Shown here one piece after another: positions 4,014-9,375 of a stretch of DNA of 14,267 bases. How positions within the stretch are numbered: the first letter of the stretch is position 1; each line of letters opens with the position of its first letter. The stretch spans positions 1-14,267 of the forward strand of contig JAUSIJ010000008.1 of the NCBI GenBank assembly GCA_030647855.1, written 5' to 3'. The position numbers and the translations under genes are program-made. The notes under the pieces were generated by a model that saw nothing but the letters and a program-made list of their open reading frames with translations, made no database searches and was not told the DNA's origin. This stretch comes from a bacterium (GTDB lineage Bacteria; Patescibacteriota; Minisyncoccia; Phycocordibacterales; JAUSIJ01).

Positions 4014-4043
4014 ACTGTATCACGCGGGAGACTGATCTTTCAA
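4014..4043 (-). promoter_or_regulatory. Promoter of tRNA-Gly
   Basis: On the minus strand TTGAAA (4043-4038), an 18-nt spacer and TGA-TACAGT (-10 at 4019-4014, with extended TGn) form a sigma70-type promoter; the -10 ends 20 nt before the tRNA. Confidence 0.55.
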
Positions 4044-4077
4044 GCCTATTTTAAAATTTCTTTTTGATGTCGAGTAG

Positions 4078-4083
4078 TATAAT
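4078..4083 (+). promoter_or_regulatory. -10 box for tRNA-Arg (and probably cca)
   Basis: A perfect TATAAT ends 10 nt before the tRNA-Arg 5' end, putting +1 near 4090. The -35 region is AT-rich without a clear hexamer. No other convincing promoter lies before cca, so tRNA and cca may share this transcript. Confidence 0.55.
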
Positions 4084-4093
4084 ATGTGAGGAC

Positions 4094-4165
4094 GCGCCCG
4101 TAGTGAAATGGATATCATAACTGCCTTCGAAGCAGTCGTTGCGGGTTCGAATCCTGCCGGGCGCG
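4094..4165 (+). tRNA. tRNA-Arg (anticodon UCG)
   Basis: 72 nt. Acceptor GCGCCCG (4094-4100) pairs with CGGGCGC (4158-4164), discriminator G at 4165. Anticodon stem ACTGC/GCAGT with loop CTTCGAA gives anticodon TCG. T arm GCGGG-TTCGAAT-CCTGC. CCA is not encoded. Its T-loop/acceptor 3' half is repeated exactly 165 bp downstream. Confidence 0.93.
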
Positions 4166-4168
4166 CTC
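4148..4168 (+). repeat. 21-bp direct repeat, copy 1 (inside tRNA-Arg 3' end)
   Basis: Begins in the T loop (CGAATCCTG) and runs through the acceptor 3' strand and discriminator plus 3 nt. Identical to 4313-4333. Confidence 0.9.
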
Positions 4169-4176
4169 ATTGTGTG

Positions 4177-4347
4177 GTCGGGAAAAGCCAACCGTTTGGC
4201 TTTCGACAGGATTCGAAAGGCGGAATATGCTGCCGCAAGCAGCCATGAGCCGGCCTCGCCCATAAGCTACGGCTGAGAGGGTCGCGGGTTTGCGGAAGGC
4301 AAAACCTGTGACCGAATCCTGCCGGGCGCGCTCGTTTTTACTCTAAA
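4177..4347 (+). ncRNA. Candidate structured RNA leader of cca
   Basis: By eye this segment folds compactly. Hairpin A: GTCG + AAAGCCAA paired with TTGGCTTT + CGAC, loop CCGT (4177-4207). Long-range helix AGGATTC (4208-4214) with GAATCCT (4314-4320), stacking directly on A. Inside it are hairpin B, GCTGC-CGCAA-GCAGC (4229-4243); a possible H-type pseudoknot, AGCCG (4248-4252)/CGGCT (4270-4274) crossed by CCTC (4254-4257)/GAGG (4277-4280); and hairpin C, 14 bp with two G-U pairs and one bulged A, loop GGAAG (4280-4313). The 3' strand of the long helix lies in the second copy of the tRNA-Arg 3' end. The structure ends 27 nt before the cca ATG. No known RNA family was recognised. It could be a cis-regulator of cca, a decayed insertion at the tRNA, or both. 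Confidence 0.5.
4313..4333 (+). repeat. 21-bp direct repeat, copy 2 (tRNA-Arg 3'-end duplicate, 14 nt before cca)
   Basis: Exact copy of tRNA-Arg positions from T loop to 3 nt past the discriminator, without a tRNA body. It is followed by GTTTTT and the cca start. Repeats of a tRNA 3' end are typical of att sites, but the 144 bp between the copies hold no integrase or open gene. Confidence 0.9.
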
Positions 4348-5826
4348 ATGAACAGACAAACTCGATTCTCAATCCCAAAAGAGGTGTTGGACGTCATACA
4401 AGCGCTCCATACGGCGCGCTTTCAAGCATATCTCGTAGGCGGCTGCGTACGCGATCTTTTGCTCGGCATAAAGCCCCGTGATTGGGATATCACCACTAAT
4501 GCAACCCCGGAAGAGATTGTTAAGCTTTTCCCAAAAACTTTTTACGAAAACGCTTACGGTACCGTCGGTATAGTGAATGAGCAAACGACCGACGAGACGC
4601 TCAAGGTAGTCGAGGTTACTCCGTATCGCCTCGAGAGCGAGTATTCCGACTTTCGCCGACCCGACAAAGTGACATGGAGCGATAAATTGGAGGACGATCT
4701 CAAGCGCCGCGATTTCACCGTGAACGCCATGGCCTACGACCCAACAAAAGGACAGACGGTTGACCTTTATAAAGGACAGAGTGACTTAGCGGCAAAAGTT
4801 ATTAGAACCGTCGGCCCTCCGAAAGATCGATTCAGTGAAGATGCGCTCCGAATGCTGCGCGCTGTTCGACTCTCGGCAGAGCTCGGCTTTGCAATCGAAA
4901 CGGAAACCGAAAAAGCGATCGCTCGGCACGCCGAAAACCTCGGTAAGATCTCGGCTGAGAGAATTCGTGACGAATTTATCCGCCTGCTCATGTCAAAGGA
5001 ACCGATGCGCGCTATTGTCAAGCTCGAGAGCCTTGGTTTGCTTTCGCACTTCCTTCCGGAGCTTGAAAAAAGCGTCGGCGTAAAGCAAAACCAAGCCCAT
5101 AAATATGAAGTTTTTGAGCATCTCCTCCGTTCGTTGCAATGTGCAGCCGATAAAAACTGGCCACAGGACATTCGCTTGACAGCCCTCTTTCATGACATTG
5201 GCAAACCACCCACCCGGGAATGGTCAGATGAAAAAGGTGACTGGACTTTTCATGGCCATGAGGTAGTCGGCGCCCGCATGACCAAAAAAATCCTTGAGCG
5301 GCTTCGTTTTTCCAAAGCAGTCGCGGAACGCGTGGTAATGCTCGTCCGATGGCATATGTTTTTTTCCGACGTGGAACAGATCTCGCTCTCGGCTGTTCGA
5401 CGGCTCGTCGCCCATGTCGGTGCTGAAAATATATGGGACCTCATGAACGTACGCGTTTGCGATAGGGTAGGGACTGGTCGCCCCAAGGAAACGCCGTACC
5501 GACTGCGCAAATACAAAGCTATGATCGACATGGTGCTTCGAGACCCTGTCTCTGTCGGAATGCTCAAGATTGACGGCACAGGGGTAATGGAGATCACCAA
5601 GCTGCCGGCGGGCCCTAAGATAGGCCATATATTGCACGCCCTGCTCGATTTGGTGCTCGACGATCCGAAGCGTAATACCAAAGAATTTCTTGAGGGAGAG
5701 GCCTCGAAGCTGGCCAAACTTTCTGACCAAGTACTGAAAACTTACGGCGAACAAGGCAGAACAGCCAAAGAAAAAGAGGAAGAGAAAGAACTGCAAAAAA
5801 TTCTTTCCCGTCACAAAGTTCAGTAG
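4348..5826 (+). CDS. cca: CCA-adding tRNA nucleotidyltransferase with HD domain
   Basis: 492 aa. Class II nucleotidyltransferase: VGGCVRDLLLG (30-40) and the metal-binding DWDIT (45-49); RRDFTVNAMA (120-129) for ribose recognition; EDALRMLRAVR (164-174) is the EDxxR nucleotide-template motif. After the neck and body an HD domain has FHDIGKP (281-287) and FHGHEVVGA (301-309), as in long bacterial CCA enzymes with phosphohydrolase activity. It adds CCA to tRNA 3' ends, needed here because the three tRNA genes lack CCA. A charged C-terminal tail (KEKEEEKELQKIL) follows. No Shine-Dalgarno is seen before ATG 4348; the leader holds a tRNA-Arg 3'-end copy and a strong RNA fold. Confidence 0.95.
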   Translation: MNRQTRFSIPKEVLDVIQALHTARFQAYLVGGCVRDLLLGIKPRDWDITTNATPEEIVKLFPKTFYENAYGTVGIVNEQTTDETLKVVEVTPYRLESEYSDFRRPDKVTWSDKLEDDLKRRDFTVNAMAYDPTKGQTVDLYKGQSDLAAKVIRTVGPPKDRFSEDALRMLRAVRLSAELGFAIETETEKAIARHAENLGKISAERIRDEFIRLLMSKEPMRAIVKLESLGLLSHFLPELEKSVGVKQNQAHKYEVFEHLLRSLQCAADKNWPQDIRLTALFHDIGKPPTREWSDEKGDWTFHGHEVVGARMTKKILERLRFSKAVAERVVMLVRWHMFFSDVEQISLSAVRRLVAHVGAENIWDLMNVRVCDRVGTGRPKETPYRLRKYKAMIDMVLRDPVSVGMLKIDGTGVMEITKLPAGPKIGHILHALLDLVLDDPKRNTKEFLEGEASKLAKLSDQVLKTYGEQGRTAKEKEEEKELQKILSRHKVQ

Positions 5827-8475: not shown

Positions 8476-9375
8476 CTACTCCTTGCCTCTGTTATGAAAC
8501 CGTTTGTGCACCTCTTTTAAATGTTTATCGGTAAGATGAGTATAGATCTGGGTTGTGGAGATATTGGCGTGCCCAAGCATCATTTGTACCGAACGCAGAT
8601 CTGCGCCGTTTTGCAGCAGATCGGTGGCGAAACTGTGTCGAATGACGTGCGGCGTCACTTTTTTTGAAATACCAGCCTTGATGGCATAGTGTTTTACAAT
8701 TCGTTCGACCGAACGAGACGTGAGCGGAGAGGTTTCCTTGCTTTTGTTGCGGTGTCGCACAAAAAGGGCGTCGTGCATATCTTTGCGTGCTTCAAGGTAT
8801 GATTTGACTGCTTTTTTTGCGTCATCCGATAGAAACACCACCCGGACTTTGTCGCCCTTTCCTCTGACAGAGAGTTCATCATGTTTGAGATTGATATCCC
8901 GAGGCAAGGCGCAGAGCTCGGAAACACGAAGGCCGGTCGAGAAAAACAACTCGAGAATAGCTTTGTCCCGCAGCGACTTAAGATCTTTACCGCTTGAGGC
9001 ACCGATCAAACGCTCAAGCTCATCGTGGGTAATAAGATCAAGTGATCTTTCTGGGATTTTGGCGAGCTCGATGCGCTCCGGCGCGAGCGACTCGATCCCG
9101 CGCCGAGAGAGATACTTGAGAAACGTGCGCAGGGCGATGAGATAATAATTCTGGGTTTTTCGCTTCATGGTGTCACCTACGCCCGGCTGGCGGTTGAGCC
9201 ATAGTCGGAACTCGCGCACGAGCTCGTCCGTCACCGACTTCGGAATCGAGGCCCTGGTCTGATTCAAAAAGCGAGTCAGATAGCGGTCATAGCTCTCGAT
9301 AGTCTTTAAACTTCGCCCCCGCTCAATTTCGAGATGTTCCAGAAACTCGCGTTTTAATTCTTGAAGTGTAGCCAT
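8476..9375 (-). CDS. xerD: XerC/XerD-like tyrosine recombinase
   Basis: 299 aa, the usual Xer length. N-terminal SAM-like core-binding domain (LKREFLEHLEIERGRSLKTIESY, 1-90) and a C-terminal catalytic domain with Arg150 (FSTGLRVSEL), Lys173/176 (RGKGDKVR), His243-x2-Arg246 (PHVIRHSFAT), His269 (LGHANISTTQIYTH) and the nucleophile Tyr278. A complete active site suggests chromosome dimer resolution at dif, perhaps as the single Xer of a reduced genome; XerC versus XerD cannot be told apart. No dif-like site was seen nearby. It diverges from rpsO across a 100-bp gap; a TACAAT hexamer lies about 35 nt upstream. No Shine-Dalgarno. Confidence 0.9.
   Translation of the reverse strand: MATLQELKREFLEHLEIERGRSLKTIESYDRYLTRFLNQTRASIPKSVTDELVREFRLWLNRQPGVGDTMKRKTQNYYLIALRTFLKYLSRRGIESLAPERIELAKIPERSLDLITHDELERLIGASSGKDLKSLRDKAILELFFSTGLRVSELCALPRDINLKHDELSVRGKGDKVRVVFLSDDAKKAVKSYLEARKDMHDALFVRHRNKSKETSPLTSRSVERIVKHYAIKAGISKKVTPHVIRHSFATDLLQNGADLRSVQMMLGHANISTTQIYTHLTDKHLKEVHKRFHNRGKE

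Follow-up and report, generated by a model that had tools for sequence, protein, structure and literature searches.

The segment at positions 4172-4312 of the window, by which we mean the whole analysed stretch of 14,267 nucleotides, is probably (we would put the chance at roughly 65%) a member of a family of small folded insertions that follow tRNA and tmRNA genes in Patescibacteria (CPR), that are mobile and that have their guide re-fitted to each tRNA. The elements measure roughly 110-150 nt and are folded, and on either side of the insertion stands a direct repeat of the tRNA portion that begins at C56 and reaches at least approximately to the end of the tRNA. In its topology this equals an insertion at the T-loop position C56/G57 by which the tRNA upstream stays intact and a spare tail is added downstream. 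Comparison among loci shows a predicted fold of the sense strand together with two putative guides, placed around a hairpin (P0) and complementary to the tRNA just upstream. It also shows near-identical cores located within one genome at different tRNAs and accompanied by different guides, as well as one pair of an occupied and an empty site.

At the window locus (Table 1), the tail of tRNA-Arg at 4148-4168 recurs exactly, over 21 nt, at 4313-4333, and over 24 nt with one mismatch if 4148-4171 is set against 4313-4336; the inserted stretch amounts to 141 bp. The exact tail copy stops 14 nt short of the ATG of a 492-aa open reading frame, whose name, cca, is taken over from the initial annotation and not from a family search. 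Segment 4204-4217 can pair with 4146-4159 at 13 of 14 positions, and 4204-4215 with 4313-4324 at 11 of 12. When 4167-4347 was folded, 2 of 200 shuffled sequences folded equally well (z -2.6), and none of 200 did so for 4094-4347 (z -4.2). The initial annotation had described both the repeated tail in front of cca and strong complementary segments, and these descriptions hold. It had also pointed out that AGGATTC may pair either with the repeat copy or with the T arm, which is correct and proved to be the key. The helices it proposed agree within a few nucleotides with P0, with the helix between guide 1 and the copy and with P3, while P2 was not among them. Its second suggestion, the scar of a tiny insertion, came near the truth as far as the insertion is concerned, but what was inserted is one of a conserved, folded and guide-bearing family of elements rather than a mere scar.

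Table 1. Features of the tRNA-Arg locus, in window coordinates
Feature	Position	Strand	Remarks
tRNA-Arg(TCG)	4094..4166	+	T54-T55-C56 = 4146-4148
Direct repeat, upstream copy (from tRNA position 56 through the 5 nt that follow the tRNA)	4148..4171	+	
Guide 2	4172..4181	+	complement of acceptor 3' strand and following nucleotides, 9/10 positions including G-U
Hairpin P0	4184..4203	+	sits between guide 2 and guide 1
Guide 1	4207..4217	+	exact complement of tRNA-Arg 4146-4156 (positions 54-64); spans the C56/G57 copy boundary
Core hairpin P2	4219..4251	+	with internal loop
Additional hairpin-like stretch	4254..4280	+	missing from this genome's other element, behind tRNA-Lys
Core hairpin P3 (GUCG...UGAC)	4281..4312	+	long
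tRNA-Arg 3' end, downstream copy	4313..4336	+	
cca (CCA-adding enzyme) ORF, 492 aa	4348..5826	+	neighbour, outside the element

Distribution and fold of the element family

A second element is present on another contig of the window's genome (472 kb, 68% complete). It lies 46 nt behind tRNA-Lys(TTT), carries a copy of the tRNA-Lys tail and has guides that match tRNA-Lys, and the two elements of this genome differ by compensatory changes in their helices. With a covariance model built from the pair (R1), matches at E<=0.01 were obtained in 85 of the order's 148 genomes. The refined model (R2), built from 41 sequences, matched 47 of 379 genomes of the phylum at E<=1e-4 under strict filters and 33 of 40 genomes of the order at E<=0.001 under laxer ones, and elements were found in several classes of the phylum. 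Five genomes of 0.8-1.1 Mb that were re-queried with R2 yielded 16, 21, 26, 26 and 30 matches, and this in a phylum of very small genomes. R2 gave no match in 7 of the 40 order genomes, an indication that the model is probably not triggered by ordinary tRNA genes.

One exact core pattern, searched in contigs of one genome per species from 84,980 species (genome_contigs), occurred in six stretches, all assigned to Adlerbacteria, Parcubacteria or Patescibacteria. A looser pattern, GGAATATG-N-CATGAG, matched 50 of 383 genomes of the class and at least 120 viral stretches; among its 154 matches in fetched stretches, those with GAA just upstream were inspected, and the only element-like ones were the copies belonging to the two elements of the window's own genome. 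At gathering score, Rfam 15 returned only tRNA and tmRNA in the window, in a permissive scan of 4030-4400 and in 18 related loci (54 kb).

Partial R2 matches were read in 14 stretches, 11 of which, from outside the class, represent a shorter form consisting of guide 1, P2, P3 and the copy; a same-strand tRNA ends at most 60 nt upstream in 7 of the 14. The short-form loci from outside the class (L296-L301, L305-L309) are without P0, and their P3 loop often reads CAGCAG. In some of them, for example L299 and L306, a long hairpin starting in the tRNA tail takes the place of P0. Upstream of positions 801-876 of L309 there is a tRNA-Met-like sequence, not called by ARAGORN, from which about 7 nt of the T arm around C56/G57 are apparently absent.

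The anatomy of the elements was derived from 183 matches at 138 loci, 181 of them distinct and coming from 82 genomes. Most (137 of 183) begin at most 150 nt 3' of a tRNA or tmRNA gene on the same strand, 131 of these within 60 nt. Another 28 are found 150-400 nt from a tRNA, many of them as second or third units of tandem rows, and 2 lie further away. For the other 16, ARAGORN finds no same-strand tRNA upstream in the stretch; some of these are at contig ends, and for one of them (L172) Rfam identifies a tmRNA. The host genes cover 39 anticodons and tmRNA (5 cases). Elements behind tmRNA genes were seen at L172, L219, L234, L235, L250 and L293, and in the five tmRNA cases that were scored guide 1 fits the tmRNA tail, L293 excepted.

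The initial annotation had recommended a covariance-model search of relatives for compensatory changes, and in an alignment of 102 related sequences all 44 modelled pairs vary on both sides, far more than chance would give. In this alignment 88.4% of the cells are paired, compared with 60.4% after shuffling and at most 47.8% after sliding, the counts resting on alignments fitted to the covariance model. For P0 the paired fraction in the 102 sequences reaches 98.8%, and all of its 8 pairs vary on both sides. G-U cells exceed A-C cells by 510 to 195 (both alignments summed), an indication that it is the tRNA sense strand that folds. The same module of guide 2, P0 and guide 1 was observed ahead of differing core types, among them a GACTTTTC...GAAAAGTAC type, a GGTGCCCAGACC type and a GTCCAGC/GTCCCGC type (L186:1501-1632, L165:1097-1209; L178:1677-1827, L206, L242; L184, L187, L218, L251). 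With one module ahead of different cores, it may be that targeting modules and cores can be exchanged.

Guides, tail copies and retargeting

Guide 1 was scored in 134 elements, 3 of 137 being dropped for want of an anchor or of a register with 6 matches, and the register was the one with the best match. Watson-Crick pairing with tRNA position 54 is found in 134 of these elements, with position 55 in 133 and with position 56 in 134, and positions 57-64 are paired in 84-100%. Positions 54-55 lie outside the copied tail, yet they are paired by guide 1. In 9 tRNAs positions 54-56 read TCC or TGC and not TTC, and guide 1 carries the matching change in 8 of these cases; in the usual TTC cases the conserved AA facing T54-T55 could be structural. 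There are 61 T-arm sites at which copy and tRNA differ, counted only for copies at least 7/10 identical, and here the guide agrees with the tRNA in 47 (one of them contributed by a locus fetched twice), with the copy in 8 and with neither in 6. The comparison shows guide 1 keeping its predicted match to the tRNA while the spare tail decays.

Guide 2 fits tRNA and copy equally well in 89 of 137 elements, the tRNA better in 41 and the copy better in 7. With both guides combined, the own tRNA beats all 20 randomly chosen other tRNAs in 94 of 137 elements. Within single genomes, the own tRNA was compared with the best other listed tRNA: it wins in 11 of 11 cases in genome G478, whereas in G405 there are 10 wins, 6 ties and 5 losses among 21; tRNA tails resemble one another. 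At L227:601-751 and L230:601-751 the guide fits the element's own copy (CAGCACCC) but no adjacent tRNA; these elements may be orphans or have a target that was not recognised as a tRNA.

The copies themselves are in various states of preservation. Among 120 that were scored (tmRNA and unanchored cases excluded), 68 are identical at the stem sites, 27 are substituted and 25 are gapped or poor. Where stem sites differ, the pair is present only in the tRNA tail at 49 sites, only in the copy at 5, in both at 23 and in neither at 1. We also considered the copy as the displaced original tail, which should then fit the tRNA 5' strands better than the present tail does; this idea was rejected, as such a fit is seen in only 4 of the 27 substituted cases. 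In the 87 recent cases, out of 136 scored, the repeat starts exactly at C56 in 78, with an extension of 1 nt in 5 and of 2 nt in 4. At three loci (L175, L182 and L273) it continues to 0-2 nt from guide 2, in the first two through a terminator-like hairpin, so that here the inserted unit begins with guide 2 and ends with P3, while the duplicated target starts at C56 and reaches up to the element. Orthologous loci in two species of one genus provide the empty (L331) and the occupied (L332) site; their downstream sequences are related, and a target segment of 21 nt aligns twice.

The cores group by genome and not by tRNA. Their mean identity is 0.669 for different tRNAs of the same genome (108 pairs), compared with 0.583 for the same tRNA in other genomes (257 pairs) and 0.585 for other tRNAs in other genomes (8680 pairs). 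Lineages each homing on one particular tRNA were therefore rejected, as elements at the same tRNA in other genomes are no closer than the rest. When the nearest core was determined for each of 177 cores, 29 had it at a different tRNA of their own genome, 8 at the same tRNA of another genome and 70 at a different tRNA of another genome; an unassigned tRNA was involved in the other 70, 9 of them within the same genome. Cores that are 95-98% identical occur with different guides at tRNA-Met and tRNA-Gly in G478, at tRNA-Cys and tRNA-Leu in G411 and at tRNA-Ser and tRNA-Arg in G413, and with partly different guides at two Arg tRNAs in G331. It is the guides that differ between such near-identical cores, and often P0 too.

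Together with these pairs, the Gly element of G478 suggests retargeting. This element is recent, its duplication running through the terminator, its nearest core, at tRNA-Met, is 95% identical, and the Gly guides occur in none of the other 12 matches read from this genome (13 of 16 matches were read). Part of the similarity of cores within a genome could come from gene conversion between resident elements. Such conversion among old residents is conceivable because the copy of L218 has changed, yet its core is 97% like that of L251.

If these elements are indeed mobile, they would move as a folded single strand, either RNA or ssDNA. Guide 1 would recognise the T loop by spanning the cleavage site C56/G57, and every insertion would be accompanied, or soon followed, by a refitting of the guide to the tRNA. 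The mover would be some enzyme or the element's own catalysis. Taken to its full extent, the scheme describes a self-retargeting, gene-less element of ~130 nt that inserts at C56/G57, takes a new two-part guide (with hairpin changes) from the tail of the new tRNA and colonises nearly any tRNA or tmRNA gene throughout the phylum without disabling it. We offer this full scheme only tentatively, as a possibility on which we would not yet stake the interpretation.

Alternative readings and candidate partners

The alternative that fares best is a host-useful resident RNA, which in cis or in trans would act on its own tRNA (as a folding check, in processing or in the control of termination), its guides being kept by selection and its cores homogenised by gene conversion. 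Guide 1 following the tRNA and not the copy would be in line with such a role, as would the presence of up to 30 elements in one genome and the near-identical cores with differing guides and often differing P0. We consider it unlikely all the same: an orthologous site is empty within one genus, genomes of a single order carry anything between 0 and 30 copies, and sharing the same tRNA does not make elements of different genomes more similar than elements picked at random. In addition, the direct repeat is a mark of insertion, and in several loci a terminator-like hairpin stands between the tRNA and the element.

If the elements are mobile insertions, it is natural to ask what moves them, and we compared 23 element-rich genomes (at least 5 elements) with 17 that have fewer. 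A weak association was seen for the Y1_Tnp family, found in 20 of 23 element-rich and 8 of 17 element-poor genomes (Fisher p 0.013). It would suit a REP-like element that is moved in trans by a Y1 (HUH) transposase binding P0, with guides corresponding to the cleavage-site guides of the IS200/IS605 type. A hairpin does lie beside a guide, and IS608 is reported to select its target through base pairing and to be open to re-programming (PMC5934647). Such a partnership is nonetheless improbable in our view, given that G384, G476 and G390 carry 18, 15 and 14 elements without any Y1 match and that R2 detected no element at E<=1 at 20 Y1 loci, many of whose reading frames have palindromes of their own that differ from P0 by eye. 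RAYT-like Y1 transposase genes (L342-L361) are common in the order. A reverse transcriptase as partner, judged by the RVT_1 model only, was set aside for lack of association (9 of 23 element-rich against 9 of 17 element-poor genomes, p 0.52).

Tyrosine integrases deserve attention for a different reason. A direct repeat of the tRNA 3' end next to a restored, intact tRNA is the classic pattern of tRNA-integrated islands, and it is present in the elements, which might accordingly be remnant att sites of tRNA-targeting tyrosine integrases, with only incidental folding. We regard this as very improbable in view of the conserved, covarying core and the guides. Moreover, 16 of the 23 element-rich genomes have a single Phage_integrase match, presumably Xer, while 6 have two or three and G469 has none. 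The latter genome, a contig of 752,630 bases (99% complete), harbours 12 elements and shows neither a Phage_integrase (PF00589) match at E<=0.001 nor a cca match. The window element had no match in plasmid and phage records, and the exact core pattern occurred 0 times in viral contigs. The window itself contains, at 8476-9375 on the minus strand, a tyrosine recombinase ORF, which is the sole PF00589 match in its incomplete genome. Since each of the three families (RVT_1, Y1_Tnp and Phage_integrase) is missing from some element-rich genomes, none of them is a sufficient general partner, unless some of the elements are relics.

Slightly weaker again, and hardly credible, is an intron, in which the mature tRNA would consist of positions 1-56 joined to the downstream copy after removal of the middle. 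The minimum-energy fold of the window locus, where the 5' end of the tRNA pairs with the tail copy and the guide with the upstream tail, speaks for such an intron. However, copies decay (25 gapped or poor and 27 substituted among the 120 scored), and it is the upstream tail that keeps the stem pairs (49 versus 5), for which reason we rejected the copy as the true 3' end as a general rule.

The tRNA-mimic leader controlling cca, which the initial annotation had favoured, can practically be dismissed: the copy 14 nt before the cca ATG is what speaks for it, whereas the same element is found behind 38 other anticodon types and tmRNA, and across the family elements are unlinked to cca. A cca match was obtained in just 8 of 158 element loci (L158-L315), many of which have only ~0.6 kb of flank, and none in 3 kb of sequence surrounding the element behind tRNA-Lys in the window's genome. 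The relatives' cca genes point in the same direction. With a cca match in 19 of 20 relatives' genomes, 20 cca loci were read (L316-L335), and the orientations, derived from the listed coordinates, place tRNA-Arg(TCG) pointing away from cca in 14, directly before it in 1 (L327) and on the same strand at a distance of ~1.2 kb in 1 (L328), with the tRNA unseen in 4. In L327 the tRNA runs directly into cca and R2 detects no element, an arrangement that the initial annotation itself had named as contrary to a cca switch. A conserved position 5' of cca was thus found neither across the element family nor at the 20 cca loci of relatives.

Relation to known systems

A search of the published full-text literature, with preprints outside its scope, returned no description of this element family, which is apparently undescribed. 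If mobile as we infer, it would represent a small, naturally re-programmable, gene-less and site-specific inserter whose target rewrites its guide. If it is useful to the host instead, it would amount to an RNA system operating tRNA by tRNA. On either reading, the anatomy leads to predictions about partners and about a site, C56/G57, that can be put to the test.

Several known systems share individual traits with the elements. Group I and group II introns and IStrons are structured RNAs found at tRNA genes, with guide pairing across the insertion point, much as seen here; in contrast to these, the elements have no Rfam match in the window and the 18 related loci and no recognised intron core, and the tRNA is uninterrupted. 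Islands of tyrosine integrases leave a direct repeat of the tRNA 3' end and keep the tRNA intact, which also holds for our elements. Unlike such islands, these are tiny (141 bp in the window, with no integrase of their own), possess a conserved fold and a guide, and reside in hosts with few or no extra tyrosine recombinases. In REP/RAYT systems, by definition, the palindromes also flank the gene of an associated Y1 transposase, whereas 0 elements were found beside 20 Y1 genes, many of which have other palindromes next to them. The tandem rows of element units recall a CRISPR array.

Casposons are reported to insert at tRNA genes and to duplicate a target segment (PMC6614799), so that insertion at tRNA genes with target duplication likens the elements to casposons and Cas1 integration. 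They differ in being ~0.1 kb long and thus too short for an integrase gene, in having no terminal inverted repeats that we noticed, and in guides complementary to the target. REP sequences are described as small high-copy hairpin elements that may be mobilised in trans (PMC8266576), and the small size, the hairpins and the high copy number are common to both. With IS608 the elements share the choice of a target by base pairing (PMC5934647). What separates them from REP and IS200/IS605 elements is the absence of Y1 from some element-rich genomes, a larger, RNA-like core, guides of ~20 nt that come in two blocks and are matched to the host tRNA, and a site that is one single T-loop position.
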